Positions 12,766 through 45,132 of a stretch of DNA of 45,132 bases are shown here, piece by piece (position 1 is the stretch's first letter; the number at the start of each line of letters is the position of its first letter). The notes beneath the pieces were generated by a model. The model searched no databases. It was not told where the DNA came from and saw only the letters and a program-made list of their open reading frames with translations. Position numbers and translations under genes: made by a program. The stretch lies in IMG/VR virus record IMGVR_UViG_3300032246_001663, positions 1 through 45,132 of that record; one strand, given 5' to 3'. This stretch comes from a virus.

Positions 12766-14600
12766 TTTGCAGCCTGTGCAATGTTCACAGTGGCGTTTCC
12801 GCCTGTGTTGTTATTGACCGTAACTTTTACATTATTCGCCGGAGCGTTGCGGGCGAGTTTCATTCGCTCACCTTCGACTTTCGGAATGTATGCCTGTGTT
12901 TCTGCAGGCAGCCCCGCTTTCCAGTTTCCGCCATGTTTGCGAATGGCTTTATCTACATTGCCCTCCCCGGCGTTATATGCTGCCTCGGCTTTTTGCGCGT
13001 CACCGTTATATTTTTGCAGCAAGTACGCATACAGGCGCGCCGCCCCGTTTGCACTGTCCTTAAAATCGAACGGGTCTTTTACGCCCATTGTTTTTTGTGT
13101 GCCGGGCATAAATTGAAAATGCCCCTTCGCACCTGCCGGGCTGATCATGCTACCCTGACCGCGCCGGGTTTCCGCATAATACGTTGCGTCGAGAATATTA
13201 TTCGGTAACTTGTATTTCTTTTCAAGCTCGCGTAAATACGCCTGCTTTTGTGCGACCGTTTCGGCACTGTCAGACGCTGCGCCAGCCACGCCCGGCGCTG
13301 TCGGCGCTGATGTGATTTTGCCCGATGCGCTCGGACCCTTTTTATTTCCGAATATTTTTAAATCGTTGCCGTTTTCCGGTTTGAAAAAGTCAAAATCAAC
13401 ACTTCCTAGATTTCCGCCCCGAAGGTTTAAACCGTTCGGGGTTGTGGCTTTTTTATTTGTATCAGGCAGAAGAAAACTAAGAGCATCAACAAAACGACCC
13501 ATAATCGCCGCCGCCCGTTCGACGTAGTCGAGAAACTTATTGATGTCTCGCTCAAAATCGTCGGATGTAAGATATTTTGCAAAACGTTCCGCACCTTTCC
13601 CGGCGCTTTCCAGCCATTCGCCGATTTTTGGGGATTGTAAAAATATTTCTACTGCATGCGCCGCCGCGTCAGACAGTTTTTCAAGATTCGGTGTGAGCGG
13701 TTCAATACCTTTCAAAAACGCGCCCTCAATGACCCGTTTGCTGCGGTCGATCTGCACGTCAAGCCGCTGCCATTGCTGCAGGGTTTTATCCGTGAGCGCC
13801 AATTGTTTGCGATCGCTTTCGTATTGCCGCAGCGTGATTTCTAACTCCTGACCACGCAACGAAGCCAGCCGCCGCGCTGTCTCAAAATCAACCACATTAC
13901 CAAGCCCGCGCGCCTCGTAACCTTGCCGGGTTCCACCTGTCTCTTTGAAAGCCCGTACAGCACCGCGTAACACGTCCGGCAGTATATCCTCGGCGGAACG
14001 ACTTTCGCCATTTTTGACACCAAGAGATTTTAAAACCCATCGCTTTGACAAGTCGCTTTGCAGATCCGCCACATTCGACAATGTCGCGTCTGGATTCAGG
14101 TACGGGGAAAGGTTGACCTGCGCGGATCGCATTGCGCCGGGGCTAAACCCGATACCGGACGACTGACGACGAATACCTGTGCCGCTTGATGCAAGCGCAT
14201 TTATGCCGAACAGCGACCCAGTAGCCGCGCCCAGTGTGCCGACAACCGACCATTTTGCAGCAGTGCCGACAATGGATAAAAACGTCCCGGCAATGTCTTT
14301 CGTAATCCGGGCGGTCGTCATCAAGCCTTTGTTGAGTTTGTTTGTGTGTTCAACAAACCCGCTGACATTGTTTTTTGTTTTCGCTGTATTGTTTGCAACC
14401 TTTTCAGTATGCTCGGCAACTTTGTCCACGGACGCGGCCATTTCCCGCATGACCGCAAGCAATGCCGAAAACGAATCGCTAGTTTTTGCAACTTCGGCGG
14501 GCGTGTCTTTTAAATCAACTTTGAACGAATCAAACGCTGATTTAAATTCGTCCCAGCCGACCGCATTTACTTCAATGTCTAATACGGCGCGCTCTGCCAT
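12762..14600 (-). CDS. Tape measure protein with C-terminal lytic transglycosylase domain
   Basis: A 612-residue protein. The first half is helical and coiled-coil-like (EMAASVDKVAEHTEKVANNTAK) with a hydrophobic Gly/Ala stretch near 107-140, typical of tape measures. Residues from about 462 form an SLT-type lytic transglycosylase: YYAETRRG with the catalytic Glu near 477, AKGHFQFMPGTQKTMGV, then EAAYNAGEGNVDKAI. The enzyme domain would cut peptidoglycan during genome entry. At this length the tail would be short for a myovirus. Its ATG comes one base after the stop of the frameshifted chaperone product, and that 3' end supplies its AGGGG ribosome-binding site. Confidence 0.85.
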   Translation of the reverse strand: MAERAVLDIEVNAVGWDEFKSAFDSFKVDLKDTPAEVAKTSDSFSALLAVMREMAASVDKVAEHTEKVANNTAKTKNNVSGFVEHTNKLNKGLMTTARITKDIAGTFLSIVGTAAKWSVVGTLGAATGSLFGINALASSGTGIRRQSSGIGFSPGAMRSAQVNLSPYLNPDATLSNVADLQSDLSKRWVLKSLGVKNGESRSAEDILPDVLRGAVRAFKETGGTRQGYEARGLGNVVDFETARRLASLRGQELEITLRQYESDRKQLALTDKTLQQWQRLDVQIDRSKRVIEGAFLKGIEPLTPNLEKLSDAAAHAVEIFLQSPKIGEWLESAGKGAERFAKYLTSDDFERDINKFLDYVERAAAIMGRFVDALSFLLPDTNKKATTPNGLNLRGGNLGSVDFDFFKPENGNDLKIFGNKKGPSASGKITSAPTAPGVAGAASDSAETVAQKQAYLRELEKKYKLPNNILDATYYAETRRGQGSMISPAGAKGHFQFMPGTQKTMGVKDPFDFKDSANGAARLYAYLLQKYNGDAQKAEAAYNAGEGNVDKAIRKHGGNWKAGLPAETQAYIPKVEGERMKLARNAPANNVKVTVNNNTGGNATVNIAQAAK

Positions 14601-22533: not shown

Positions 22534-24257
22534 TATTTGGCTCCCGGTTTGTTAATACGCATCACGCGCTGCGCAGGCAGAACGAAGGGCGCGAGAAATG
22601 CTTTTGTTGAGCCGACAAACTCGCGAATTTCGCGGCCGCCGACGCGCTTAACCACTTCGACAAGGTTATTAGCGGTTCGGGCAGTTTTGGTCGCATTGGC
22701 GCGAACAGATTGCAAAATGTTGCTTTCCGCCATTGCCAACATTGCGCTGTCGTGGCGGATATTCTGCAGATCCAGCGATTGCAATTCCGCGCTCGCGAAT
22801 TTCTGCGCAGTCATCAGCGCGCGCAAACGGTAATCTGCTGCGCGCTCGCCCGGCAGTGGTTGGCTTGCACGTTTGCCAACAGCACTTAAAACGGAATCCA
22901 TTTTTGCGCAGTAGTCCGCTTTCATGTTCATTTCTTCCGCGCTGTCGGCCGCCAGACGCGCCGCCGCTTCCTCCGCGTCTTTCTTGGCTTTCGCTTCGGC
23001 TTCCTCCGCGTCCTGCTTGGCTTTCGCTTCGGCTTCCTCCGCGTCCTGCTTGGCTTTCGCTTCGGCTTCGGAATCGCTACGGGCTTTTTCTTCCGCGCTA
23101 TCCAGACGCGCTTTAATTTGCGCGTTATCTTCCGCAATCTTATTGATTGCGGTCAGCAGTGCTGACAGATCTGCGGTCGGGGCATTTACTCCCGGCGCAC
23201 TGTCTTTCTTTACTTCGTCGCTCATTTCATTAACTCCTGTTTGTGAGAGTGTGACCCCGGCCGGATCGCCCCCTTTATCCCATACACCCTGCTCACACAC
23301 GGCGAGATGGTCAATCAGGCGCGGATTGCCTTCGATATACAATTGGCCGCTCTCATTATCGCCCTGTTTTAAAATCGGTGCAACAAGTACGCCGGGCGAG
23401 GTTGACATTTGCTTTTTAAGCATAATCTCGGCTTTTTCGTCATCGTAAATTTTAGCCACGCCCCAGACTTCCTGCTCGTCATGTTTCAGATACGGCAAAA
23501 ATACGCTGCCGATGTTTTGCGCGGCATACTCTTCCGGTTTAATCAGCGCCAGATTGTCGCCCTCCGGATGTTGCCACACCACAGGCAGCCCGTTACAGCG
23601 TTGTAAAAATTCCTCGTTCATATAGAACTCTGGCGGGCGATACGCAAGCTCATTGTCAGCCACGCGCCACGCCGTACCCGTCCCGGTGATCCGCATATCG
23701 AACAGATACACATTAAGGAACTTGAAACCTGATGGCAGAACACCGCGCATAACCAGCCGCGCCGCGTCTAACTCAGTACGCATTGTGGCGATGTCGAGTG
23801 CATCACGAATACCCGGATGCAGCGGGTACGGCAGATCGTCAAGATATGACCACATCGCGCCGGATGATTCGTCGCACATTTTCACCGGGAACGGTTCAGC
23901 AATTTTGGCGACATACGTAACAAAACCGCCCGCGCTCATTGCTTCCGACAATTCCCCGGTGTAGTCGAGCCCGGTTTCCTCCAGCGTTTCGCGGCGCGCT
24001 GCCTGCTCCGGGGTTTCGTCGGGTTCGATGTGACCAGCCGGGAGCCCCCAGAATCCGGGATAGTCGCCACCTTCGCCACGTTTCAGCAGCAGAGTTTTTC
24101 CGTCATCGGTCAGAAATAAAATTCCGGCGGCAATCGGCGATTCGGCGCTGTCGGCTTTTACAAATTCTTCGCCGACTGATTGCGGAATGCCTAGCGTACT
24201 GTGACCATGCGCTGCCGCTTCCATCGCACGATGCTGTTTTTCACTTGTTGTCGGCAT
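22533..24257 (-). CDS. NUDIX hydrolase + DUF2213-like prohead protease + coiled-coil scaffold fusion
   Basis: A 574-residue multidomain head protein. Residues 1-37 hold a phage-head motif (KQHRAMEAAAHGHSTLGIPQ). Residues 40-160 form a NUDIX domain with a complete box from G75 to L97 (GHIEPDE, then RETLEETGL). Residues about 165-345 match DUF2213-type capsid proteases (LPVVWQHPEG, MSTSPGVLVAP, RLIDHLAVCE). Next comes an acidic coiled coil with an exact 11-residue repeat (AEEAEAKAKQD), a hendecad typical of straight scaffold rods, and a basic C-terminal capsid-contact region. The protease would process the scaffold. The NUDIX part, with all metal ligands, may act on nucleotides or be structural. 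The fusion is what is odd here. Confidence 0.8.
   Translation of the reverse strand: MPTTSEKQHRAMEAAAHGHSTLGIPQSVGEEFVKADSAESPIAAGILFLTDDGKTLLLKRGEGGDYPGFWGLPAGHIEPDETPEQAARRETLEETGLDYTGELSEAMSAGGFVTYVAKIAEPFPVKMCDESSGAMWSYLDDLPYPLHPGIRDALDIATMRTELDAARLVMRGVLPSGFKFLNVYLFDMRITGTGTAWRVADNELAYRPPEFYMNEEFLQRCNGLPVVWQHPEGDNLALIKPEEYAAQNIGSVFLPYLKHDEQEVWGVAKIYDDEKAEIMLKKQMSTSPGVLVAPILKQGDNESGQLYIEGNPRLIDHLAVCEQGVWDKGGDPAGVTLSQTGVNEMSDEVKKDSAPGVNAPTADLSALLTAINKIAEDNAQIKARLDSAEEKARSDSEAEAKAKQDAEEAEAKAKQDAEEAEAKAKKDAEEAAARLAADSAEEMNMKADYCAKMDSVLSAVGKRASQPLPGERAADYRLRALMTAQKFASAELQSLDLQNIRHDSAMLAMAESNILQSVRANATKTARTANNLVEVVKRVGGREIREFVGSTKAFLAPFVLPAQRVMRINKPGAK
22975..23073 (-). repeat. 33-bp direct repeat, three copies, in scaffold coiled coil
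   Basis: Three units at 22975-23007, 23008-23040 and 23041-23073 differ by only a few bases and encode the 11-residue AEEAEAKAKQD/K unit. Near identity at the DNA level indicates recent expansion, so copy number may differ between relatives. Confidence 0.85.
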
Positions 24258-26405: not shown

Positions 26406-27704
26406 TTATATGCCGTCCGGGTTAGGGTTAAGGCCGATGCAAACGCCATAAGTGACAGTGTCGTGTACGTCGTCTGCGCGTTTCGGTGCGTCCGGGTCGC
26501 CGAGAACATACGACGTGACCTGCGCGAGCAAGTGGTTTTTAGTTTCCTGTTTAAACGTCGTCACTTTCATATACGCATGATCGGATATTTTAACCTGACC
26601 GTTAGCGACCGGACCCGCTGCTAACATTGTACGACCATCCTTGCCTTTTGCAGTCAGTTTTTCAGGAATCGGCACAACCTTCATTCCGTGCGTTTCGCCA
26701 TGTTGCAGCATCATTGTTCCGCTGCTCTTGTCTTCGATGTATGCGCCAGTGAATCCCATAAGCGCGGAACACCGGGCGGCCAGCACTTCGCCATGAGCCA
26801 GCACACCGGGCAACCATTCAGTAAGCATCGACGCGCGGATCTGGACATAATCCCAATCAAGTATAGTCAGTTTATGTGTTTCGGAATATGGGTCAAGCGC
26901 AAACCATGTGATCGCTGTCCCGTCATGCTCTTTGCCGTCTTTCATTGCCGAATCGATGACGGCGAATATAGAAAATGTGCCGTTTGGGTACGGTACAGGC
27001 TGACCATTCACGAGGAATGCTTCACGCGGCAGAATCGCAGTTCCGCCCCAGTCAATAAACATCGCCTCATATTCCTGCAGCCACACATCCGGAGCAAACT
27101 GAGCTTTCATTTCCGTTAATGCTTCGGCTGACAAGTGCGGGTTCAATCTGGTCGGCAAGTGAAACTCAGTAAAGCCAAACTGTTTATCAGTGCAGATCTG
27201 GTAAAACCAACTCCGGGCGCTTACGCCCTTCGGCGTCCCGGCAAAGTACGCGCTGCCGTGGCGGTCGGTCAATGTCGGCAAGATCGCTTGCTCGTAGATG
27301 TCGCGCAGCCCGTCCCGGACGAGCCCGGCCTCGTCAATAATGACGCGGTCGTAGTTACGCGAGCGCCCGGCGTCCTCGTCTTCCAGGGTCCAGAACTCCA
27401 GCGACCCGCCGCCGATGAGAGTGATCAAGCCATCGTTTTTATTGGCCGTGATCTTTAGCGGGCTAAGGGTGCGTAAGCATTCTTTATATGACGGGCTCAA
27501 TAATTTATATGTCGGCGTGAACCATCCGATTTTTTCGCCCTTAATCGCCCAGTTTTTCGCGGCTTCCTCCAGCAATGTAGTCTTACCAAAGCGACGGCCG
27601 GCCCTGAACACATAGCGTCCGCCGCGTGGGGTCGCTGCAATTTCCCGGTAAATTTGCTGTTGTGCCGAGTGGAATTTCTTTAATTTAACTCTGATCTGGG
27701 TCAT
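26406..27704 (-). CDS. Terminase large subunit
   Basis: A 432-residue packaging motor. Walker A GRRFGKTT (36-43), Walker B VIIDE (121-125), coupling motif SAYFAGTPKG (151-160). The nuclease domain shows AVID (D251), then DKSSG and DDVHDTVTYG, the acidic cluster of RNase H-like terminase nucleases. It belongs to the Terminase_6-like group. It overlaps the small subunit gene by 20 bp and is followed one base later by the portal gene. Headful packaging would fit the circularly permuted assembly, but the type cannot be fixed from sequence. Confidence 0.92.
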   Translation of the reverse strand: MTQIRVKLKKFHSAQQQIYREIAATPRGGRYVFRAGRRFGKTTLLEEAAKNWAIKGEKIGWFTPTYKLLSPSYKECLRTLSPLKITANKNDGLITLIGGGSLEFWTLEDEDAGRSRNYDRVIIDEAGLVRDGLRDIYEQAILPTLTDRHGSAYFAGTPKGVSARSWFYQICTDKQFGFTEFHLPTRLNPHLSAEALTEMKAQFAPDVWLQEYEAMFIDWGGTAILPREAFLVNGQPVPYPNGTFSIFAVIDSAMKDGKEHDGTAITWFALDPYSETHKLTILDWDYVQIRASMLTEWLPGVLAHGEVLAARCSALMGFTGAYIEDKSSGTMMLQHGETHGMKVVPIPEKLTAKGKDGRTMLAAGPVANGQVKISDHAYMKVTTFKQETKNHLLAQVTSYVLGDPDAPKRADDVHDTVTYGVCIGLNPNPDGI

Positions 27705-28242
27705 TTTCGATTACCACGCGCACCGTTAAATCTTTGCCGTTTGAATTGCCCTGTGCCGCCCCTGACGATGTCGGCAGACCATGCGCCAGCCGTTCGCCGT
27801 CATGCGTGATTCGATACGTTTCGGCAATTATTTTTGCTAATTGCGCTTTCTCTTTGCTCTTCTCTTCGATGGCCTCCCAAAGCAACGGGCGCAATTTTTG
27901 CCAGTCTTCCCGGTGCGACTGTATTAAATCGTCTGGCGTTTCCGGAGGCGGCGGCGCGGGCTTGGCTGCGACCACAACACCCGGCGATGGTGCGGCGGTC
28001 GGTGCTGTCTCTTTCAAGTCAATCATCTTCATACGCGCGGGCTTCCCGGTCCGCTCGTATGTCTTAAAAGCTGCAACCTTGTCAATCAGCGTACCGGGCA
28101 ACAAGCGACCGTCTGGAATTGTGCGTAACGCTTCACGCAACTTATTTTCCTTTAATCCGGTTTTTATAATTATCTCGGAAAGCGGCAATTCTAGCGCCCA
28201 CATCCGAAAAACAGCCACACGAGTAAGCTTTCCAATCTTCAT
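27685..28242 (-). CDS. Terminase small subunit-like protein
   Basis: A 185-residue protein, first gene of the late block, overlapping the large terminase. The N-terminal 40 residues form a helix-turn-helix (RVAVFRMWALELPLSEIIIK, GLKENKLREALR). A Pro/Ala linker (PAPPPPETPDD) leads to a coiled-coil oligomerisation helix (REDWQKLRPLLWEAIEEKSK). This HTH plus coiled coil layout fits DNA-recognising small terminases. Ribosome-binding site AAAGG precedes ATG 28242. Confidence 0.7.
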   Translation of the reverse strand: MKIGKLTRVAVFRMWALELPLSEIIIKTGLKENKLREALRTIPDGRLLPGTLIDKVAAFKTYERTGKPARMKMIDLKETAPTAAPSPGVVVAAKPAPPPPETPDDLIQSHREDWQKLRPLLWEAIEEKSKEKAQLAKIIAETYRITHDGERLAHGLPTSSGAAQGNSNGKDLTVRVVIENDPDQS

Positions 28243-28284
28243 AATTATTACGCCTTTGACATTTAAAACGGTTTCTACTGCTAG

Positions 28285-28377
28285 TTACCACGACATTTCC
28301 GATTTATGTCCGAACATGACCGGATGCCCGGACGGTTTTCGTTCGGACATTTCGTTAAGCCATCGACATACCTTCAT
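28285..28377 (-). CDS. Possible 30-residue leader peptide
   Basis: A frame with a strong ribosome-binding site (AAAGGA, five bases before the ATG) encodes MKVCRWLNEMSERKPSGHPV and ten more residues, ending in ...EMSW. It lies 43 bp upstream of the small terminase on the same strand. It runs through three copies of the regulatory motif at 28306, 28324 and 28341, so its sequence may be set by those sites. It could be a leader peptide or chance. Confidence 0.3.
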   Translation of the reverse strand: MKVCRWLNEMSERKPSGHPVMFGHKSEMSW

Positions 28378-28899
28378 TTTTTTCCTTTAAAATCAATAAC
28401 TTACAAAAATCAATGACCGAAGACCGAACAAAACACCAAAATTCAGTTCCAAACTGCCCCCACTTCCATAATTACATAATTCCCGTTAACGCCCCCAGTA
28501 ATTACAGCCAGCCCCGCCGCCGCGCCGGGATGCGGTTCGGACACGCGGAAAAAATGTTAATTTGATAGACGTAAACCATTGATTAATAAGGGTTTTCAGC
28601 AAGTGGTATTACATGCCCGAACCATGCCCGTACACCTTCGTTCGGACATAAATTTACTGCCCGTCGCAAACTTAACATCACTTTTGCCCCTGCTGTAATT
28701 AGTGCGTCTATGGCTTAACGGGTTTTGTCCGGGCATGGCTGGCTTTTTGTCTCATTTCCGCCACGCTCAGAGGGAAACCCGCAAAACCTTGTGATTATTA
28801 CCCCCGAAAACCCTAAAAAATATAAGTCTTATAACGGTTTCAAAAGCCTTATAAATCAATGACTTACACGATTATGCCCGTACGGACACGTTCGGACAC
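28306..28899. repeat. Eleven copies of RTGYCCGNAC (operator or iteron cluster)
   Basis: Plus-orientation copies start at 28306 (ATGTCCGAAC), 28324 (ATGCCCGGAC), 28613 (ATGCCCGAAC), 28624 and 28874 (both ATGCCCGTAC). Inverted copies are 28341-28350, 28535-28544, 28640-28649, 28728-28737, 28880-28889 and 28890-28899 (for example GTTCGGACAT). Three of them form dyads with a 6-7 bp spacer (28324-28350, 28624-28649, 28874-28899). This density in non-coding DNA points to a specific protein binding array; whether for transcription or replication is not visible. Confidence 0.8.
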
Positions 28900-28921
28900 T
28901 ATTAATTTCGTCTTAATACAC

Positions 28922-28950
28922 TTGTTAAGGTTAAAATTTAACCCTATACT
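28922..28950 (+). promoter_or_regulatory. Early promoter P1 with palindromic operator
   Basis: TTGTTA (28922-28927), a 17-bp spacer and TATACT (28945-28950) form a sigma70-type promoter. The spacer contains GGTTAAAATTTAACC (28929-28943), a perfect palindrome around one base and a close relative of the operators at the other early promoters. Transcription would start near 28957, immediately before the folded leader. Confidence 0.75.
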
Positions 28951-28960
28951 GTTCTGCATA

Positions 28961-29021
28961 TCGTACACCAAGCGGAAGGCTGCAAGTGCGGCCAGTTTCG
29001 CCGCTTAAATCAACAGTACGA
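28961..29021 (+). ncRNA. Strongly folded leader RNA (three stacked 6-bp stems)
   Basis: TCGTAC (28961-28966) pairs with GTACGA (29016-29021); AAGCGG (28970-28975) with CCGCTT (29001-29006); GGCTGC (28978-28983) with GCGGCC (28988-28993, one G-U) around an AAGT loop. All three are nested in order and begin a few bases after the predicted start of P1. It may be the 5' part of a leader with regulatory function or a small RNA ending at the structure at 29030-29075. Not a known riboswitch as far as I can tell. Confidence 0.55.
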
Positions 29022-29029
29022 CACAACCA

Positions 29030-29075
29030 GCGCCACGTCATAGGGAAGAAACCTGTCAAAACATGGCGCATTTTT
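29030..29075 (+). terminator. Possible attenuator/terminator in the early leader
   Basis: GCGCCA (29030-29035) and TGGCGC (29064-29069) can pair across a 28-nt loop and are followed by ATTTTTA. The stem is short for the loop size, so it would be a weak or conditional terminator. It lies 24 bp before the first early gene. Confidence 0.35.
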
Positions 29076-29098
29076 AAATAAACAGAAAGGGCGAAAGT

Positions 29099-29509
29099 AT
29101 GAGGCTGTCAAACAACCGTATTCAGATATACATGGCGCTGCGCGTAATGCCGCACATTACCCCGGCGGAGGCATTGCGGATTGTCAGGGAAATACCGTTT
29201 GCAAGATTCGTCATCGATCAGCCGCTTTTTTATGTATCCGCCCGCCCGCTGTCTGACTTATACGGCGTCCCGGCAAAAACTTACGGATCGTACGGGGCGG
29301 CCAGAAATAGCGCGGCAGGTCGCAATCTGCCGAACATGCCTGTACGCACCATCACATTGCATGAGCTATTGCAGCGCGCAAAACCCCCGAAAACTGAACA
29401 GTATCAGGCTTTTGATACTGTTGGCTTTTTGGGCATTTATCGCACTGTTGACGCTGCATATAAAGCCAATCCCGGCATTAATTTCTATATTCAAAAGGTG
29501 ATGTTATGA
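29099..29509 (+). CDS. First early gene, unknown function
   Basis: A 136-residue protein, no recognised domain. It starts MRLSNNRIQIYMALRVMPHI with a helical region ITPAEALRIVREIPFARFV, and ends GIYRTVDAAYKANPGINFYI, a short beta-helix-beta pattern that recurs in weaker form at the ends of the next two proteins. AAAGGG lies seven bases before the ATG. It is the first gene behind P1 and overlaps the next gene by 4 bp, so the three proteins 29099-30404 are made together. First genes of phage early operons often act on the host; that is inference. Confidence 0.65.
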   Translation: MRLSNNRIQIYMALRVMPHITPAEALRIVREIPFARFVIDQPLFYVSARPLSDLYGVPAKTYGSYGAARNSAAGRNLPNMPVRTITLHELLQRAKPPKTEQYQAFDTVGFLGIYRTVDAAYKANPGINFYIQKVML

Positions 29510-34489: not shown

Positions 34490-34773
34490 AAACCGCTAAC
34501 GACTTTTACGACCGGGCGGAACTACTCGGCCGCCTGTGCCTGCGATTGATCCTGTCGCCGCCACGATACACAACACGGCAGACCGCCGACGGTGGCTCAG
34601 TGTATCAAGCCAATTTGCGCCGACGTGAGCGCCGCATACATCAGTATCAAAAGGAACGGACCTTATGCAACATGATCGGCGCTCATATGGAATTTTTCGG
34701 GACGCTGCACGACGCGCCGCACGTCCCAGCGAAAATGAAACTACTGCATAAAGCCAGATATGAACTTTTATAA
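34486..34773 (+). CDS. Unknown basic early protein
   Basis: A 95-residue, Arg-rich protein (RAELLGRLCLRLILSPPRYT, then LRRRERRIHQYQKERTLCNM). Mostly helical, no recognised domain. Overlaps the methyltransferase gene by 14 bp and the preceding gene by 4 bp. Basic character suggests nucleic-acid contact. Confidence 0.55.
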   Translation: MKTANDFYDRAELLGRLCLRLILSPPRYTTRQTADGGSVYQANLRRRERRIHQYQKERTLCNMIGAHMEFFGTLHDAPHVPAKMKLLHKARYELL

Positions 34774-35953
34774 CGAGATTGACGAATACGCCGCGCAATG
34801 GTTGCGCAATTTAATCGCAGCCGGGCACATCGCGCCCGGCGTAGTTGACACCCGAAGCATTACGGAGATTTTCCCAGATGAGCTGCAACAATACACACAA
34901 TGCCACTTTTTCGCCGGAATCGGCGTCTGGTCATACGCCTTGCGCCTTGCAAAATGGCCAGACAGTCGAAAAGTCTGGACAGGCTCATGTCCGTGTCAAC
35001 CTTTCAGCGCGGCTGGCGGACGTGGCGGGTTTAATGACGAGCGGCACTTATGGCCGCATTGGCATTGGCTCATCGAACAATGCCGCCCTGATGTTATTTT
35101 TGGCGAGCAAGTTGCAAGTGCTGACGGGCTCGGTTGGTTCGATCTTGTACAATCTGACTTGGAAGGCGCGGGTTACGCCTCAGCAGCGTTTGATTTATGC
35201 GCTGCGGGCGTCGGTGCGCCGCACATCAGGCAGCGCCTGTATTTCGTGGCCTACTCCAGCGACGCGAGATTACAAGGGCGAATCGGGCGCGGGGCGACAG
35301 GAACGGAAAGGGTATCCGGCGGTTCTGACATCTTGGCCGACACCGCAAGCGATAGACGGATCTGGGCAGGGGAGGGCTCCGAGGCTGAAGCCGGACGGCA
35401 ACAGGGACCCGATGTCGGAGGGGTCATATCGGGCGGATCTGAAAGATGCGGAATGGTTGGTTCTGAGCAAACCGCCTTATTTGGAGTTAGCACCGTGGCC
35501 GACACCAGTGAGGAACGACGAGAACAAGAGCCGAACATCAAGACCGCAGGAGTTTTCGGAAAAGGAATACAACAGGAAAAACTCGGGCAGCAGTCTGGCG
35601 ATATGGGCGCAACATCTTGCAGCGTGGCCGACACCGAATTGCATGGATACAATCGGGAGGCGGTCGGACGAAGCTCTGGCGAGAGCGAAACAGAAAGGGG
35701 GCTGCAGCAATCTGAAAGATGTCGCGCCGATGGTGGAGAGCAACACCCCGGCCCGACTAACGGTCACTGGCGATCTGCTGACTGGCTCCTGTGCAGAGAT
35801 GGAAAGTGGCGGCCAGTTGAACCCGGCACATTCCCGCTGGCTCATGGGGCTCCCGGCAGAGTGGGACGCTTGCGCGCCTACGGTAACTCCATCGTCCCGC
35901 AAGTCGCGCAAAGTTTGATATCTGCGTTTTTAGGGTCAGAAAGTGAGCTATAA
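34760..35953 (+). CDS. DNA cytosine-5 methyltransferase (Dcm-like)
   Basis: A 397-residue C5 methyltransferase: motif I FFAGIG (50-55), motif IV PCQPFS with the catalytic Cys (78-83), motif VI as GEQV (115-118) in place of ENV, motif VIII HIRQRLYFVA (155-164), and a C-terminal motif X RAYGNSIVPQVAQ. The region between VIII and X is a long, low-quality linker with repeated VADT, where a specificity domain would normally be; the same bases encode WPTP repeats in another frame. It may methylate phage DNA against host restriction. I saw no cognate restriction enzyme. Confidence 0.85.
   Translation: MNFYNEIDEYAAQWLRNLIAAGHIAPGVVDTRSITEIFPDELQQYTQCHFFAGIGVWSYALRLAKWPDSRKVWTGSCPCQPFSAAGGRGGFNDERHLWPHWHWLIEQCRPDVIFGEQVASADGLGWFDLVQSDLEGAGYASAAFDLCAAGVGAPHIRQRLYFVAYSSDARLQGRIGRGATGTERVSGGSDILADTASDRRIWAGEGSEAEAGRQQGPDVGGVISGGSERCGMVGSEQTALFGVSTVADTSEERREQEPNIKTAGVFGKGIQQEKLGQQSGDMGATSCSVADTELHGYNREAVGRSSGESETERGLQQSERCRADGGEQHPGPTNGHWRSADWLLCRDGKWRPVEPGTFPLAHGAPGRVGRLRAYGNSIVPQVAQSLISAFLGSESEL
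34878..35918 (+). CDS. Long overlapping gene inside the methyltransferase (WPTP-repeat protein)
   Basis: A 346-codon frame, shifted +1 relative to the methyltransferase and lying wholly inside it. It reads as a coherent protein: LMTSGTYGRIGIGSSNNAAL, LTWKARVTPQQRLIYALRAS, four WPTP motifs (SWPTPATRD, SWPTPQAID, PWPTPVRND, AWPTPNCMD) and LNPAHSRWLMGLPAEWDACA near the end. I recognise this text from proteins found beside phage cytosine methyltransferases, so it is unlikely to be a chance frame. Each WPTP lies where the other frame has VADT or a variant. ATG 34878 has CGGAG ten or so bases upstream; TTG 34845 is an alternative. Role unknown, perhaps target recognition or a partner subunit. Confidence 0.7.
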   Translation: MSCNNTHNATFSPESASGHTPCALQNGQTVEKSGQAHVRVNLSARLADVAGLMTSGTYGRIGIGSSNNAALMLFLASKLQVLTGSVGSILYNLTWKARVTPQQRLIYALRASVRRTSGSACISWPTPATRDYKGESGAGRQERKGYPAVLTSWPTPQAIDGSGQGRAPRLKPDGNRDPMSEGSYRADLKDAEWLVLSKPPYLELAPWPTPVRNDENKSRTSRPQEFSEKEYNRKNSGSSLAIWAQHLAAWPTPNCMDTIGRRSDEALARAKQKGGCSNLKDVAPMVESNTPARLTVTGDLLTGSCAEMESGGQLNPAHSRWLMGLPAEWDACAPTVTPSSRKSRKV

Positions 35954-36377: not shown

Positions 36378-38090
36378 ATGCTAACACCGAAACTGAGGCC
36401 GTATCAGGCGCTTTACATACAAGATATTTTTCAAAGCTGGCAAAGCGGGCAGCGCGACGTTTTAGCGGTTTGTGCGACTGGCGGCGGTAAGACCGTGATT
36501 CTGTCGGAAGTCGTCCGGCTAATTTTAACTACGGCGTGGAACGGGCAAGTGCTGGTGCAGGTTCACAGAAAGGAACTGATCGGCCAGATATCTGTCGCAC
36601 TGGCAAAGTTTGGCATTGTTCACCACGTCATCGGCGGCAAAAAAGTTGCCGCGCTGCACATGCGCAAATTAAAACGGGTCTTTCTGAGCCCGGCCGCGCG
36701 AGTCATTGTTGCCGGAGTCGATACGCTTGTAAATTACCCGGAAAATGATTCTTTATTTCAGCAAACCCGGTACTTTATCACTGACGAAGCGCATCACGTC
36801 CTGCGCGCGAACAAATGGGGAAAAGTGCGCGAGCGTTGCATTAACTCCTTCGGGCTGGGTGTGACGGCCACGCCATGCCGGGCAGACCGAAAAGGGCTCG
36901 GCCGGGCTGCAGATGGCTTTTTTGACGTACTGATCGAACGCATCACACAGCGACAATTGATCGACAGTGGATACCTGACGCCTTACGTGATTTACGCTCC
37001 GAAAACTGATGTTGATTTGACCGATGTAAAAATCGGTGAATCTGGCGAATACGTCCATTCGCAGTTAAAAGACGCGGTCAGTAAATCGCATTTGGTCGGC
37101 GACGCTGTCACGCATTACAACAAATACGCACCGGGCAAAAAGGGTATTGTGTTTGCGGTCGATGTGGACGAAGCGCGCAAAATAACCGAGGCTTTTGTAG
37201 CCGCTGGCATTCCGGCCTGCATGGTGCATGCGAAGACCCCGGAGGAAGACCGCGACCACATTCTAAGGCGGTTTGAAGCCGGAGATTTACGCATTCTGGT
37301 TAATGTGGATCTGTTCGGCGAGGGTTTCGATATACCATCCGTCGATGTGGTCATTATGTGCCGCCCGACAGCATCCTTTCCTTTATTTGGTCAGCAGTTT
37401 GGCCGTCCTTTACGCCTGAATATTGATGATTCGTATTATGCAACTTACGACGATCTGACAGACGCCGAGCGCCGCGCAATTATTGCTGCCAGTCGGAAAC
37501 CTTACGCGGTCATTATTGATCTTGTCGGAAACGTTTTGCGCCACTTGCCGCCCGATATGCCGCGTGTCTGGTCGCTTATGGGTACTGTTCGCGGAAAAGC
37601 GCCCGGCGAAGCGTTGGAAGCTCGGCCCCAGCGTGTCTGCCTGTCGTGCACCCAGCCTTACGACCGATATAAAAGCGTCTGCCCGCACTGCGGCGCGATC
37701 ACACCGCCCCCGGCTGGTCGTTCGACTATTGAAGCGGTCGAGGGCGATCTGCAAGCGATTGACCCGGCCGTATGGGAAGCGATTTATAAAAAGTGGCAAC
37801 ACCATAAGGAAACGCCAAACCCGCCGCATAACGCTGACGCTGTTGTCGTCCGTAGTGTTCGCGCGCGTCATCACGAAAAGATGCAAGCGCATGCGGAATT
37901 GGAGCGACTTATTCAGGTTTACGGCGCTATATACGTACAGCGCGGCGATAGTGTGACCGAGGCGCAACGTCGTTTCTGGCATCAGTTTAAAGTCGATTGG
38001 ATGAGCGCATTGACCATGTCACGCGCGGAAATGGCGGAACTGTCGGAAAAGATCAGAAATTTTATTGCACAGTTAGGTTTTTCAGTTTAA
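36378..38090 (+). CDS. SF2 DNA helicase with C-terminal zinc ribbon
   Basis: A 570-residue helicase of the SSL2/RecG-like superfamily 2: Q-like LRPYQ at the start, Walker A ATGGGKT (33-39), DEAH (136-139), motif III-like GLGVTATPCR, motif V region ILVNVDLFGEGFDIPSVD and motif VI QQFGRPLRL (near 338). A CLSC/CPHC zinc ribbon follows near 420-440, and the rest is helical. It likely opens DNA for phage replication or recombination. It lies behind a terminator, with a weak ribosome-binding site, and ends 10 bp before operator P5. Confidence 0.88.
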   Translation: MLTPKLRPYQALYIQDIFQSWQSGQRDVLAVCATGGGKTVILSEVVRLILTTAWNGQVLVQVHRKELIGQISVALAKFGIVHHVIGGKKVAALHMRKLKRVFLSPAARVIVAGVDTLVNYPENDSLFQQTRYFITDEAHHVLRANKWGKVRERCINSFGLGVTATPCRADRKGLGRAADGFFDVLIERITQRQLIDSGYLTPYVIYAPKTDVDLTDVKIGESGEYVHSQLKDAVSKSHLVGDAVTHYNKYAPGKKGIVFAVDVDEARKITEAFVAAGIPACMVHAKTPEEDRDHILRRFEAGDLRILVNVDLFGEGFDIPSVDVVIMCRPTASFPLFGQQFGRPLRLNIDDSYYATYDDLTDAERRAIIAASRKPYAVIIDLVGNVLRHLPPDMPRVWSLMGTVRGKAPGEALEARPQRVCLSCTQPYDRYKSVCPHCGAITPPPAGRSTIEAVEGDLQAIDPAVWEAIYKKWQHHKETPNPPHNADAVVVRSVRARHHEKMQAHAELERLIQVYGAIYVQRGDSVTEAQRRFWHQFKVDWMSALTMSRAEMAELSEKIRNFIAQLGFSV

Positions 38091-39381: not shown

Positions 39382-39737
39382 AAAATATAAAAATGCTGGC
39401 GCTGATGGCAATGTCACTGGCTGGCAGCAGTCTTGGTGGTGCATTTAATTGGCGGTCACAATCGCAGATTTCCGGCAGATTCCGCAATTTACCAAAACAG
39501 CACCGCCGCTTGCGTGAACAGATCCGCGCCACACGGCAAGGATTGCACAATACAACAGACGGCCGAATCGAACGCTTGCGCGGAATTACTGTAATTCGTG
39601 GAAAAACGGGCGAGTTTTGCGCAATTCCTCGCGATGTGTGGTTTTACTCACACAACAATTACGGTTTTGGCGACACTCGCGCCGAAGCTATCGCAAATTT
39701 AAATAACACATTCTTACATCCGGAGATTAAACCGTGA
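39378..39737 (+). CDS. Early protein sharing an RQGLHNT motif (copy 2), possible signal peptide
   Basis: A 119-residue protein. The start MKNIKMLALMAMSLAGSSLGGAFNW could be a signal peptide or a simple hydrophobic helix. The middle has RATRQGLHNTTDGRIERLRG, like copy 1; the end (FYSHNNYGFGDTRAEAIANL) looks globular. If exported, the basic motif would work outside the cytoplasm, otherwise it is a membrane-anchored nucleic-acid binder. Undecided. Confidence 0.5.
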   Translation: MKNIKMLALMAMSLAGSSLGGAFNWRSQSQISGRFRNLPKQHRRLREQIRATRQGLHNTTDGRIERLRGITVIRGKTGEFCAIPRDVWFYSHNNYGFGDTRAEAIANLNNTFLHPEIKP

Positions 39738-40333
39738 AACTCAATAACAACTTACGAAACAAAATTGTAAATTATTTGGTCGCTAAAACTTTTGACGACC
39801 AGAATCAAGCCCTCGCGAAACTTCGCGCGGAATTTTTGCATCGTTTGGTGGTCGGCAAATTGCCGGAAGGTTTCCGCGAAGCGACCGCGAATTTGCCTGA
39901 AAAATGGTTTGTTAAAGTTGAATATGCTCAAATTGGAATTGAGTCAAAAAGCGGCAGCGTTAAGCGAGTCAGTTTGCCAGAACGCAATCATTATTATCTG
40001 TTAAGCAAAAGCGTTTTAGCGCCGCGCAATGTTGCGGAAAATGATCATTTGGTTGTATGGCTTAACGAGGATAGCCCGGAAGCCGACGAAGCCTTAAAAC
40101 TGCAGCAAAAATTTATGTCTCTTTTGCAGGAAGAAACAAAAGCGCGAAGCGATCTGAATTCGCTTTTAAATAGTTGCACGACTTATAAAAAATTTCAGGA
40201 CATCGCACCAGAACTCGCAGGCATTATTCCGAAAACCATCATCGATGTGCCGAAAACCCCCGCACCTGTTCCGGCGGTTATCGTCGGCCCGCTTATTGAA
40301 TCGCTGATTAAATCCGGGCTGAAAATTGATTGA
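39734..40333 (+). CDS. Nmad5-like protein (nucleotide modification associated)
   Basis: A 199-residue protein. The start MKLNNNLRNKIVNYLVAKTF and the KTFDDQNQALAKLRAEFLHR helix match the phage Nmad5 group, which is found near DNA-modification genes. The rest includes VKRVSLPERNHYYLLSKSVL and SLLNSCTTYKKFQDIAPEL. No catalytic motif is visible. With the cytosine methyltransferase it hints at modified phage DNA. Assignment from pattern only. Confidence 0.55.
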   Translation: MKLNNNLRNKIVNYLVAKTFDDQNQALAKLRAEFLHRLVVGKLPEGFREATANLPEKWFVKVEYAQIGIESKSGSVKRVSLPERNHYYLLSKSVLAPRNVAENDHLVVWLNEDSPEADEALKLQQKFMSLLQEETKARSDLNSLLNSCTTYKKFQDIAPELAGIIPKTIIDVPKTPAPVPAVIVGPLIESLIKSGLKID

Positions 40334-40420: not shown

Positions 40421-40633
40421 ATGCCTAAAATTTCAGAATTGCTTGCAAAGCTGCGCAAGGTTGATCCAGAAACTACAAACGCGCTCGAAACTGAAATGTC
40501 GATGTGCCATTTGCCACATCACGTCATGATGCAATTGCGCGACGCTTCGCAAAGTCTCGCACAGGGCGACGAGTGGAAAAACCGCGACGCTGTTAATGCG
40601 GCTATCTCGGCACAGGAACGTTTAAAACAATGA
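40421..40633 (+). CDS. Unknown small helical protein
   Basis: A 70-residue protein: MPKISELLAKLRKVDPETTN, then HVMMQLRDASQSLAQGDEWK and AVNAAISAQERLKQ. AAGGA lies upstream. Overlaps the VRR-NUC gene by 4 bp, so it may be a partner or regulator of that nuclease. No family recognised. Confidence 0.55.
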   Translation: MPKISELLAKLRKVDPETTNALETEMSMCHLPHHVMMQLRDASQSLAQGDEWKNRDAVNAAISAQERLKQ

Positions 40634-41109
40634 GTATCTTGTTTCAATGGGCGGCCGACTGGGGCATTAGCGCGGCCGCGCTGGACGATCTGACCGCCCG
40701 GCTGGTGTATGAAGCGGAAACGGTCGCCGGAGCCCCGAAAACGTCCGAAGGCTATGAGCAAGCGGAAATCAGGAAAGAATGTGCCGGGAAAAACATTTTG
40801 CTGTGGCGAAACAACGTCGGTGCGCTGGTGGATGCTCGCGGCAGAACAATCCGCTTCGGGTTGTGCAACGAGAGCAAAAAGCTGAATGAAAAATTTAAGT
40901 CTAGTGATTTGATCGGTGTTAGGTGTAACATTATTACCCCCGACATGGTCGGGCAAAAGATCGGCCAGTTTATCTGCCGCGAGGTTAAAAAATCAGGTTG
41001 GAAATTTAATCCGGCAGATCCGCACACAATGGCACAGACAAATTTTTTATTACTGGTCGCGGCGCATGGTGGTGACGCGCGGTTTGCGACAGGCAATGGC
41101 TCATTATGA
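40630..41109 (+). CDS. VRR-NUC domain nuclease
   Basis: A 159-residue protein with a VRR-NUC (PD-D/EXK) core: the helix EQAEIRKECAGKNILLWRNN, KSSDLIGV with the catalytic Asp near 92, and QFICREVKKSGW with the E-x-K near 117. Phages use such enzymes as junction- or flap-processing nucleases in replication. The order VRR-NUC, HTH, primase-helicase is common in phages. Overlaps both neighbours by 4 bp. Confidence 0.82.
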   Translation: MSILFQWAADWGISAAALDDLTARLVYEAETVAGAPKTSEGYEQAEIRKECAGKNILLWRNNVGALVDARGRTIRFGLCNESKKLNEKFKSSDLIGVRCNIITPDMVGQKIGQFICREVKKSGWKFNPADPHTMAQTNFLLLVAAHGGDARFATGNGSL

Positions 41110-41396
41110 AAAAATCAGAACGGAAAAAGCGATTGCTGCAAGTGGCGCTCAGTTTGTACGAGAGCGGCGGCGCTGAAAATACCACATTGTCGAGCGTGGC
41201 GCGCGCCGATGGCGTATCTCAAGCGTTGGTGGTGAAGCATTTCAAAACACGGGAAAATCTGATTTCGTCGGTTATGCGCGAAGCTGTTAAACGCGAAAAT
41301 CACAAAGTCATTTTAGCCGGATATCTGGTCGGTCATCCGGTCGCAAAATCCGCCCCCGTTTCTGTTTTGGAAGCCGCCCGCCATGCTGTTTTTTAA
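41106..41396 (+). CDS. TetR-type N-terminal helix-turn-helix protein
   Basis: A 96-residue protein with only the DNA-binding half of a TetR regulator: RLLQVALSLYESGGAENTTL, SSVARADGVSQALVVKHFKT (recognition helix), then RENLISSVMREAVKRENHKV. The ligand domain is absent. Such short TetR-like proteins are known from phage replication regions. It overlaps the primase-helicase by 14 bp. It might be a transcription regulator or an origin-binding helper. Confidence 0.7.
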   Translation: MKKSERKKRLLQVALSLYESGGAENTTLSSVARADGVSQALVVKHFKTRENLISSVMREAVKRENHKVILAGYLVGHPVAKSAPVSVLEAARHAVF

Positions 41397-43734
41397 AACC
41401 CCGGCTTTTGCCAAGCTGTACGAGTACCCGCAGTTTATTACTTACGTACTTCGCCCCGGTGTAAAGCCGGGCAAAATGGACAAGATACCCGCATGCGGTA
41501 AAACTGGCGTGATTGGCGTAAACCCGCTTGATCCGTCTGTATGGGCTGATGTGGATACGGCGGCGGCGACCGCGTCCCGGATCGGTGGCGGCGTCGGGTT
41601 TGTGTTCACAGAAAAAGACCCTTTCTTTTTTCTGGACATTGACGGATGCGTTACTAAGGACGGAACCGACTGGACCGCCGAAGCTAAATACTTTTTGCAA
41701 TTGTTCAGCGGTGCGGCGGTCGAAGTCAGCAGCAGCCGCCGAGGGCTGCATATATTCGGCACTGGTGACTGTCCGCCGCATGCGTGTAAATATGCTCCGC
41801 TTGGTTTGGAGTTGTACACGTCCGGACGTTTTGCGGCGCTGACTGGTGCGCAGGCAAGCGGCGACATATCGAAAGATTGCAGCCAGATTCTGCCGTTACT
41901 GGTCAATACATACTTTCAATTGAAAGGCGCGGACAGCGCGGCTGCTGACTGGACAGAATCGCCAGTCACTGAGTGGCGCGGGCCGTCTGACGACGAGCAA
42001 TTGCTGACGCGGGCAATGCGATCCGTCAGCATGAAAGCCGCTGCAGGCGTGGGTGCGTCGTTTGCGGATCTGTTCACAAAAAACGTTTCCATATTGTCGA
42101 GCGCGTACCCGGCCGATGATCGACCGTTTGATGAATCAAGCGCGGACGCGGCGCTGGCGCAGCATTTGGCATTCTGGACAGGGAAAGACTGCGCGCGCAT
42201 TCTCAGACTGATGCAGAAGTCGGAATTGCGCCGGGACAAGTGGGAGCGTGATGACTACATGCGCCGGACGATCCTGAATGCGTGCTCAATGGCGCGCGAC
42301 GTGCTGCAGGATCGCGCGGCTGAATCGCCGTCAGAACTGCCGCCAGCGTCTGCAGAATCGCCGAAAATCCAGCGTTTGGAACGTCAAAACAAATTTCTCA
42401 CTGTTGACGAGCAAGCGGCATTGTTCGCCGGGTGCGTGTACGTGGCCGACCGCCATAAAATCATGGTCCCGGGCGGCGAGGAATATTCAGCCGAGCAATT
42501 TAACGTGCTTTTCGGCGGGCGGTCATTTCTTACCGACGAATTAGAAAGTAAAGTTTCGTTTGATGCGTTTAAAGCATTCACACAAAACACACATTACCGC
42601 CCGCCGATGGCGATGCGCTCAACATTCGACCCGCGCCAGCCTCCCGGCGCAATTATCGGTAACGAAGTGAACAGTTATTACCCGGTGCAAATTGAACGCA
42701 AACAGGGCGACACGACGCCATTTTTTAAATATTTTGAGATGCTATTACCAAGTGCGCGAGACAGGCAGATTTTGCTTTGCTACATGGCCGCGCTCGTTCA
42801 ATTCCCCGGCGTCAAATTCAAATGGGCCCCGTTTATTCAGGGTGTCGAGGGTAACGGTAAATCATTTTTGCTTCAAGTGATGTTGCATGCTGTCGGGCGC
42901 GAGTATTCGCATTTTCTGCGCGCGAAAGGTGCGACGGCAAATTTCAATAGTTGGCGCTATCGAAAAATATTTGTCGGTATTGATGATCTGTACATCAGCG
43001 ACGATTTAAAAGACCTGATGGAAGATATAAAAGAAATGGTCACAAACCCGCTGCAGGAAATCGAATCGAAGGGGCGCGATAAGATCATGCGTGCGGTATG
43101 TTTTAATCTGATGATCTGCAGCAATCATAAGAACGCAATTAAGAAACATGAGAGTGAGCGCCGGGTCGCGATGTTCTACACCGCGCAGCAGAAAAAGGGC
43201 GATCTGATTACGTCCGGGATTGGTGACTATGTCCACAAGACCCTGTATCCGTGGGCGGAATCTGGCGGGTATGCGATCCTCGCCGAATTGCTGCATACGT
43301 ACCCGATACCGGACGAATATAACCCGGCACTAGGTGGCGTTGCCCCTGATACGTCCAGCCTCGCGGAAGCCCTGACGGTATCGCGCGGCAATCTGGAAGA
43401 CGCATTTATCGAAGCGGTCGAGTCGGCCACGGTTCCCGGATTTATGGGCGGCTGGGTTAGTTCGCTGGCGTTTGATCGCTGGCTTGCTTCTAAGCATTCC
43501 GAGCGAATTGTACCGATGAACCGCCGCCGCGAATTTTTGGAAAGTTGTGGTTACATTCTGCACCCGGCGCTGTCCGACGGCAGAACGTCGCGGATTGTTT
43601 CGCCTGACGGTGGACGCCCGCGCCTGTACGTCAAAAAGGGTCATAGCAATCTGACGTTAGGCAATCCGTCAGACATTGTGAATGCTTACGAGAAGTCACA
43701 AAGTTTACTTGACGTGTCTTACTTGTTGGGTTAG
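41383..43734 (+). CDS. Primase-helicase (AEP-like primase + DUF5906 helicase)
   Basis: A 783-residue replication protein. The N-terminal primase shows FFFLDIDGC (D85, D87) and SSSRRGLHIFG (116-126, H123), the AEP active-site residues, and LELYTSGRFAALTG. The C-terminal part is an SF3-like helicase with Walker A GVEGNGKS (about 487-494), Walker B VGIDDLYI (near 531) and FNLMICSNHKNA with the sensor Asn. This pairing is typical for phage genomes with family B or A polymerases. P6 lies within its 3' end. Confidence 0.88.
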   Translation: MLFFKTPAFAKLYEYPQFITYVLRPGVKPGKMDKIPACGKTGVIGVNPLDPSVWADVDTAAATASRIGGGVGFVFTEKDPFFFLDIDGCVTKDGTDWTAEAKYFLQLFSGAAVEVSSSRRGLHIFGTGDCPPHACKYAPLGLELYTSGRFAALTGAQASGDISKDCSQILPLLVNTYFQLKGADSAAADWTESPVTEWRGPSDDEQLLTRAMRSVSMKAAAGVGASFADLFTKNVSILSSAYPADDRPFDESSADAALAQHLAFWTGKDCARILRLMQKSELRRDKWERDDYMRRTILNACSMARDVLQDRAAESPSELPPASAESPKIQRLERQNKFLTVDEQAALFAGCVYVADRHKIMVPGGEEYSAEQFNVLFGGRSFLTDELESKVSFDAFKAFTQNTHYRPPMAMRSTFDPRQPPGAIIGNEVNSYYPVQIERKQGDTTPFFKYFEMLLPSARDRQILLCYMAALVQFPGVKFKWAPFIQGVEGNGKSFLLQVMLHAVGREYSHFLRAKGATANFNSWRYRKIFVGIDDLYISDDLKDLMEDIKEMVTNPLQEIESKGRDKIMRAVCFNLMICSNHKNAIKKHESERRVAMFYTAQQKKGDLITSGIGDYVHKTLYPWAESGGYAILAELLHTYPIPDEYNPALGGVAPDTSSLAEALTVSRGNLEDAFIEAVESATVPGFMGGWVSSLAFDRWLASKHSERIVPMNRRREFLESCGYILHPALSDGRTSRIVSPDGGRPRLYVKKGHSNLTLGNPSDIVNAYEKSQSLLDVSYLLG

Positions 43735-43802: not shown

Positions 43803-44431
43803 GTGATTACTCTGCAGATTTCCGATGTCAATAACTTGACACCATTGGAGCGCGCGATTGTGGCGCTGATTTCCGGCCAGCAACCACAAAAACGAATTGA
43901 TGCTGCCGACCGTCCTGATGCTGGCCGCAACGTGTCTCAGGTATCTGTCGCGCAGCCGAAAGCGGGCGACGATCTGGCGTCTATCGTGGGTGATCTGGGC
44001 GATATTACTGCGGCCGCACCTGTGACCACGGCGGACACGCCGACACCTGCGGCAGAAACAACATTGCCCGCTGTAGACCGTGGCGGTTTGCCGTGGGATT
44101 CGCGCATTCACAGTACCCCGGCAAAATTGAAAGATGACGGTTACTGGCGCGCGCGCCGTGGTCTCGACGAAGCGACCCGCGTAAAGGTTGAGGCGGAATT
44201 ACGTCAGAATATGGCCGCACCTGTAGCACCAGCACCAGCACCAGCACCTGTAGCACCAGCACCTGTAGCACCAGCACCTGTAGCACCAGCACCTGTAGCA
44301 CCAGCACCTGTAGCACCAGCACCTGTAGCACCAGCACCAGCACCTGTAGCACCAGCACCAGCACCAGCACCAGCACCAGCGCCAGCACCAGCGCCAGCAC
44401 CAGCACCAGCACCAGCGCCAGCACCAGCGCC
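43803..44431 (+). CDS. PAPAP-linker phage protein, N-terminal part (continues at 1-395)
   Basis: GTG 43803, behind GAGGA, opens a frame of about 140 non-repetitive residues (MITLQISDVNNLTPLERAIV at the start, LPWDSRIHSTPAKLKDDGYW RARRGLDEATR near the linker) and then a Pro-Ala/Pro-Val-Ala linker. WDSRIHS...K..DGYWR.RRG is a motif known in many phage proteins next to replication genes. The frame leaves the phage at 44431, where foreign DNA begins; the true continuation is at 65-395, giving 319 residues. An ssDNA-related or adaptor role is guessed from context. Confidence 0.8.
44223..44431 (+). repeat. GCACCTGTA/CACCAG/CGCCAG tandem array and right copy of the 64-bp terminal repeat
   Basis: Variant hexamers (CCTGTA, CCAGCA, CCAGCG) encode PAPVAPAP linkers. 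Bases 44368-44431 equal 1-64 in exactly the same order of hexamer types. Assembly break point; the foreign sequence starts within the last CGCC. Confidence 0.93.
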
Positions 44432-45132
44432 GGGCCAAGATCGTCGCCACCCTCGGCCCGGCCACCGACAGCGCCGAAATGATCAAGGCCCTGATGGTCG
44501 CCGGGGTCGACGTGTTCCGCCTCAACTTCAGCCATGGGGAGCACCCGGACCACGCGCTTCGGGTGGAGCGTATCCGCGCCGCCGAGGCCAAGCTCGGCCG
44601 GCCGGTGGCGATCATGGCCGACGTGCAGGGCCCCAAGCTGCGCATCGGCAAGTTCAGCGGCGGCGCCGTGCACCTGGCCGCGGGCCAGAGCTTCCAGCTC
44701 GACATGAGCCCCACCCCCGGCGACGTGCGCCGGGTCCAGCTGCCCCACCCCGAGATCATGGCCGCCGCCGGCCCCGGCACGGTGCTGCTGCTCGACGACG
44801 GCAAGATCCGGCTCGAGGTGGTGCGCAAGCACGGCGAGCAGCTGGAGACCCGCATCGTCACCGGCGGGCGCCTGTCGGACCGCAAGGGCGTCAACGTGCC
44901 CAGCGTCGCCCTGCCGATCCCCGCCCTCACCGTCAAGGACCGCGCCGACCTGGCCTTCGCCCTCGACCAGGGGGTGGAGTACCTGGCCCTGTCGTTCGTG
45001 CAGCGGCCGGAGGACGTGATCGAGGCGCGCGAACTGACGAAGGGCCGGGCCCTGATCCTGACCAAGGTGGAAAAGCCCCAGGCCCTGGCCCAGCTGGAGG
45101 AGATCGTCTCCCTGTCGGACGCGGTCATGGTG
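44431..45132 (+). CDS. pyk: Pyruvate kinase fragment (foreign, chimeric join)
   Basis: A continuous 234-codon frame to the window end encodes pyruvate kinase without its natural start: RAKIVATLGPATDSAEMIKA, VDVFRLNFSHGEHPDHAL (FRLNFSHG with the substrate-binding Arg and Ser/Asn), IMADVQGPKLRIGKF, and ILTKVEKPQAL with the catalytic Lys. It catalyses phosphoenolpyruvate plus ADP to pyruvate plus ATP. The base composition is much richer in GC, with strong G/C third positions, unlike every phage gene here. It joins the phage exactly at the end of a CACCAG/CGCCAG run. It looks alphaproteobacterial. Truncated at both ends. Confidence 0.93.

Follow-up and report, generated by a model that had tools for sequence, protein, structure and literature searches.

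The divergent gap and its sites

The record analysed here is the IMG/VR virus contig IMGVR_UViG_3300032246_001663, and the window is its whole length of 45,132 bp. Late genes run leftward from a putative terS at 28242 and early genes run rightward from 29099, leaving between them a non-coding gap that holds a dense array of short sites (Table 1). Judged by protein similarity, the phage genome is a mosaic in which the virion/terminase genes and the replication genes resemble different phages. Identities of 24-52% tie the TerL, portal, capsid and tail proteins to those of QDWS, RothC, PdC23 and a Yersinia phage, whereas B2, Scuro, JD001, LAPP1 and an IMG/VR contig supply the matches of the helicase and nuclease and the majority of those of the TetR_N protein and the primase. 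The replication genes (helicase, VRR-NUC, PHROG 8723 and NrS-1-like primase, here termed the replication module) resemble those of Stenotrophomonas B2, JD001, Scuro and others. No array of this kind was seen in QDWS, RothC or the Yersinia phages, the kin in virion and terminase genes.

Two further features of the record are noted here. The early region encodes an Nmad5 nucleotide-modification-associated protein and a C5 cytosine methylase (39734-40333 and 34760-35953), so the phage DNA may be modified. The last 702 bases (44431-45132, G+C about 68%) encode a partial pyruvate kinase (PF00224, E 5e-62), and the ORF at 43803 has a proline-alanine repeat in common with the start of the record. Together, this shared repeat and the terminal pyruvate kinase suggest a chimeric junction at the low-complexity proline-alanine repeat of the right end, probably with bacterial DNA. 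In the phage genome proper, the sequence that follows after about 44.4 kb is probably the one starting at base 1.

Table 1. Features of the early/late gap and of the replication module in the record (positions of the whole stretch)
Feature	Position	Strand	Remark
Putative terS, first late gene	27685-28242	-	position before TerL; no family match
Non-coding early/late divergent gap	28243-29098		856 bp, GC 0.43
Site ATGTCCGAAC	28306-28315	+	exact RTGYCCGNAC match
Dyad 1	28324-28350		ATGCCCGGAC (28324 +), 7-bp spacer, ATGTCCGAAC (28341 -)
Second AT-rich repeat AAATCAATRACTTAC	28390-28867		4 copies: 28390 +, 28407 +, 28571 -, 28853 +
Site GTGTCCGAAC	28535-28544	-	exact RTGYCCGNAC match
Site ATGCCCGAAC	28613-28622	+	same-orientation next site 11 bp on
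Dyad 2	28624-28649		ATGCCCGTAC (28624 +), 6-bp spacer, ATGTCCGAAC (28640 -)
Site ATGCCCGGAC	28727-28736	-	exact RTGYCCGNAC match
Least stable 200 bp of record; candidate unwinding element	28766-28965		nearest-neighbour scan
Dyad 3	28874-28899		ATGCCCGTAC (28874 +), 6-bp spacer, GTGTCCGAAC (28890 -)
Inner site GTGTCCGTAC overlapping dyad 3	28880	-	makes 28874-28889 a near-palindrome
Sigma-70-like promoter TTGTTA-17-TATACT	28922-28950	+	consensus match only; 22 bp past dyad 3, towards early genes
DEAD/ResIII helicase, replication module	36378-38090	+	domain match
Endonuclease PHROG 93	40630-41109	+	PHROG match; VRR-NUC-like in relatives
96-aa TetR_N helix-turn-helix protein, PHROG 8723	41106-41396	+	proposed (putative) array binder
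Primase-polymerase, NrS-1 HBD and DUF5906 domains	41383-43734	+	Pfam match

The array was first described in an earlier note as eleven 10-mers of one motif in both orientations, and this count holds. RTGYCCGNAC has 11 exact matches in the record (5 on the + strand and 6 on the - strand), all between 28306 and 28899, which makes 11 copies in 594 bp and none elsewhere; whole-record shuffles gave a mean of 1.89 and a maximum of 6 per record. One-mismatch forms elsewhere in the record stay at the background level, with 51 in total against 41.8 expected. Because the motif had been chosen by eye, we also ran a motif-blind test in which every 10-mer was counted, with copies within 1 mismatch, across the 856 bp of the gap. 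Its largest cluster was that of ATGCCCGAAC, with 8 copies; 60 dinucleotide shuffles of the gap gave 3.3 on average and never more than 5. Among segments of this size in the record, only the low-complexity repeats near 0-2.7 kb and 43.7-44.4 kb scored higher. The other structural claims of the note were reproduced as well: the three dyads with 6-7-bp spacers, 300 and 250 bp apart, the near-perfect palindrome within dyad 3, the non-coding location at the late/early divide (here from terS to the ORF at 29099), and the adjoining AT-rich stretch, where the 200 bp of lowest stability in the record start at 28766. The gap also holds a second, AT-rich repeat, AAATCAATRACTTAC, exact at 28853 and with 3 mismatches each at 28407 and 28571, and several longer inverted repeats connect its different parts. 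No Rfam match indicated an RNA structure in the array region.

Arrays and low-stability DNA in phages with the replication module

We compared the early/late gaps of 12 phages with the replication module, the studied phage included, and scored the k-mers of each gap against the remainder of its genome. Most relatives carry in this gap an array of the same class, built from a phage-specific word of 6-10 nucleotides in two orientations. The word is CCCAAGT in B2 and GTGCCCC in Vibrio 1.009.O (7 of 10 genome copies inside the gap in each), TGTAGKWWW in PD0307 (7 of 8), TGTAGTC in AeroV_348 (5 of 13) and TGTGCAC in VP16T (4 of 11). TACCCC recurs in MSW-3 (4 of 13 copies inside the gap), Scuro (5 of 22), JD001 (6 of 31), MEW1 (7 of 40) and LAPP1 (4 of 22), copies of TTGTAGTTT lie in a similar gap of Vibrio 97.13, and the short-motif array of SppYZU01 is weak. 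Arrays of TGTGACA and of GTGTTATCTG-like words were found in Vibrio 1.083.O and 9NA, respectively, two phages in which a different small HTH-like protein occupies the slot before the primase (read by eye; no Pfam match above the cut-off). In Vibrio phage 1.083.O about 20 TGTGACA-like words fill a 925-bp gap (44776-45120 plus 1-580), and the HTH-like protein before the primase is non-TetR. Since the motifs were picked after looking, the individual P values in the relatives are not to be taken at face value, and the common position of the arrays is a stronger fact than any single motif statistic.

The earlier note had suggested looking for the array in related phages. The layout is indeed the same in the phages with the replication module, but the words differ, and neither blastn against phages nor a dyad-pattern search of IMG/VR returned a close relative with alignable intergenic DNA. 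A looser dyad pattern gave other clusters of TGTCCGGACA; these were set aside, most of them lying in G+C-rich DNA that appears to be coding and lacks the replication module. A palindrome cluster of GTCCGGAC was observed in IMG/VR contig L067 (1590-1750), directly after a gene weakly matching the primase of the studied phage. Plasmids carrying the module could help to tell an origin from a late switch, but a search for them gave none that was useful.

In the Klebsiella phage JD001 the array and its AT-rich core form a 285-bp unit present twice, at 22984-23268 and 9450-9734, each in a divergent gap. The two copies are 95.8% identical with the outermost motifs as bounds, and the flanking promoter-like sequence lies outside them. 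MEW1 has a similar second copy of 242 bp and MSW-3 a partial one.

The arrays are accompanied by low-stability DNA. In a nearest-neighbour scan the least stable 200 bp of the genome fell in the early/late gap in 11 of the 12 phages (10 of the 11 relatives), and the least stable 120 bp did so in 10 of the 12, an argument weakened by the fact that long gaps are AT-rich in general. With QDWS and YenM as controls, the gap before terS ranked 6th to 9th in QDWS and 61st to 94th in the Yersinia phage; the largest gap of QDWS ranked 1st at 60 bp, 12th at 120 bp and 19th at 200 bp. GC skew, by comparison, was rejected as proof of an origin. The earlier note had looked to a turn of the skew at 28.3-28.9 kb, and the cumulative minimum lies at 29617, some 0.7 kb beyond the right edge of the array, and is confounded with gene direction. 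With gene direction allowed for, the array has t 1.8 and ranks 27th of 181 in the studied record, where it is not the best origin, and the corrected skew is negative, disfavouring the array, in JD001, MEW1, LAPP1 and MSW-3. Because skew tracks gene direction, it gives no independent support for an origin.

Such regions occur with the replication module whatever the terminase. JD001, MSW-3 and Scuro all carry TACCCC arrays, yet BLASTP shows no relation between the TerL of JD001 and that of either of the other two; Scuro and Vibrio 1.009.O do not have the same motif, although their TerL proteins are related at 39%; QDWS has a related TerL and no array. The TerL proteins of CP-T1 and phiPLPE are 75% identical, yet in CP-T1, which carries the TetR, helicase and primase genes, inverted repeats are nested about an AT-rich core ahead of terS (stability rank 1-2), whereas phiPLPE, with DnaD/DnaC-type helicase loaders and lambda-like replication genes, has neither (ranks 12-42). 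Because the short-motif array of CP-T1 is weak, it is by its inverted repeats and AT-rich core that this phage resembles the others. From the terminase comparisons and the CP-T1/phiPLPE pair we therefore conclude that the structure belongs with the replication module, and by these comparisons motif class is a property that follows the module across unrelated terminases. CP-T1 also has twelve tandem 15-bp repeats at 12969-13158, shortly after its TetR gene.

A candidate binder and a proposed origin

The protein encoded immediately before the primase-polymerase is a plausible binder of the array. It matches TetR_N (PF00440, E 1.6e-7, above the cut-off), and its single-sequence AlphaFold model (pLDDT 88) has an HTH domain followed by short helices. 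Fold matches in the PDB are to TetR-family proteins such as LuxR and SmcR, none of them below E 0.005. The large C-terminal ligand-binding/dimerisation domain of the TetR family is absent, the protein ending at 96 aa. TetR_N proteins of PHROG 8723 were found in the studied phage and in every TetR-bearing relative tested, with the gene located within the helicase-nuclease cluster and often immediately before the primase. Recognition-helix residues go with motif class, APS with TTGTGC, PPA or TAL with TTGTAG and xG with TACCCC, and the studied phage has QAL. Identity in the helicase and in the nuclease follows motif class just as well as identity in the TetR protein does, so our attempt to single out the TetR protein in this way failed.

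The reading we prefer, with moderate confidence, is that the array at 28.3-28.9 kb is probably the origin of phage DNA replication, bound by a small HTH protein encoded beside the primase. That protein, most likely the 96-aa TetR_N protein, would occupy the 10-bp sites, whether lone or in inverted pairs, assist the melting of the low-stability DNA next to them, and recruit the phage helicase and primase to the array, where replication would start. Several observations point this way: the array is confined to one gap of the record, it has more sites than an operator needs, it is joined to low-stability DNA and linked to replication genes, the JD001 unit is duplicated between its outermost motifs with promoter-like sequences left out, and in 1.083.O and 9NA another HTH-like protein before the primase is again accompanied by an array. 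Against it, what always adjoins the array is the late operon, as expected of a switch, the skew corrected for gene direction does not mark the array, and the short-motif arrays of SppYZU01 and CP-T1 are weak. We offer a wider proposal more tentatively: a stand-alone TetR-type HTH protein might be the initiator of a widespread phage module (helicase, VRR-NUC, HTH and NrS-1-type primase), its specificity changing together with the origin motif, and the origin being duplicable as a self-contained unit.

Iteron-type origins with an AT-rich unwinding element are known from the lambda ori with its O protein and from iteron plasmids. Like them, the studied phage has short sites, resembling protein-binding sites, clustered next to the DNA of lowest stability in its genome and associated with replication genes. 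It differs in that its sites stand in both orientations and, apart from the three dyads, at irregular spacing, in place of regular direct repeats, and it is for this reason that we do not file the array as a classical iteron origin. The proposed initiator differs as well: an HTH protein of TetR type, with its gene at another place in the early operon, would work with an NrS-1-type primase. Iteron-type origins are covered in two reviews (PMC4980987, PMC5043065). The nearest studied primase-polymerase is that of NrS-1, where two copies of a recognition site may serve as the origin (PMC7102993); this 8-nt site, TTTGGTTA, is read by the primase as single-stranded template (PMC7102993, PMC8718748). 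The primase-polymerase of the studied phage is related (Pfam NrS-1 HBD), but the two single-stranded-template copies of NrS-1 stand against eleven double-stranded-type sites here, and TTTGGTTA was not seen by eye in the gap. The arrays of JD001, B2, Scuro, VP16T and others share with the studied phage the early/late position, the replication module and the low-stability DNA; they differ in that the motif changes from phage to phage and that JD001 and MEW1 have two unit copies. We found no paper naming these intergenic arrays as origins, and our literature search returned no description of the origin, or of the role of the TetR-like protein, in phages with the replication module.

Many isolates carry this module, including the Jedunavirus group studied for therapy, and a defined array together with one conserved HTH gene makes the origin question directly testable. 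If the proposal is true, TetR-type HTH proteins would join the known kinds of replication initiator, and these phages would provide a ready-made set of protein variants with their matching sites.

Possible alternative functions of the array

The earlier note had considered an iteron-type origin and a late-switch operator both reasonable. The comparison favours the origin, through the linkage to the module and the stability result in 11 of 12 phages, and the switch is its main rival because the arrays divide early from late genes and adjoin promoter-like sequences. As a switch alone, which we think rather unlikely, the sites would be operators or activator sites by which the TetR_N protein or some other HTH regulator of the phage controls the divergent early and late promoters. 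In every case the array has early genes on one side and late genes on the other, and 22 bp separate dyad 3 from the sigma-70-like promoter, itself a consensus match only. In JD001 and Scuro a motif copy lies about 10-11 bp before a TTGAC-type hexamer as read from the sequence, the annotation of KpV52 has two diverging promoters around the second unit copy, and TetR_N proteins are usually transcription regulators. A simple operator would not need eleven sites over 600 bp, however, the duplicated unit of JD001 lacks the promoter-like sequences, and a switch predicts neither the lowest-stability DNA nor the linkage to the replication module. Origin and switch functions could also be combined in one region.

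A temperate or plasmid-like phage might use such sites as operators of an immunity repressor, for attachment or for partition, a reading that we judge improbable. The dispersed layout, with sites in both orientations, does resemble that of repressor or partition sites, and a paper recording tetR-like genes and repeats in phiPLPE, CP-T1 and 138 offered attachment sites, along with a stress response, as guesses, the former for other repeats in these phages (PMC3391216); but the subset of record ORFs searched contained no integrase or ParA-type gene, and the arrays of JD001 and MEW1 occur without an annotated integrase. Least probable of all is a cos/pac-type terminase recognition site bound by TerS, which the position directly upstream of the putative terS would suit, since such a site should track the terminase upon module exchange and the array instead recurs with unrelated terminases, changes or vanishes between related ones (Scuro and Vibrio 1.009.O, QDWS, and the phiPLPE/CP-T1 pair), and in Vibrio 1.009.O and PD0307 is separated from the terminase genes by a neck gene.
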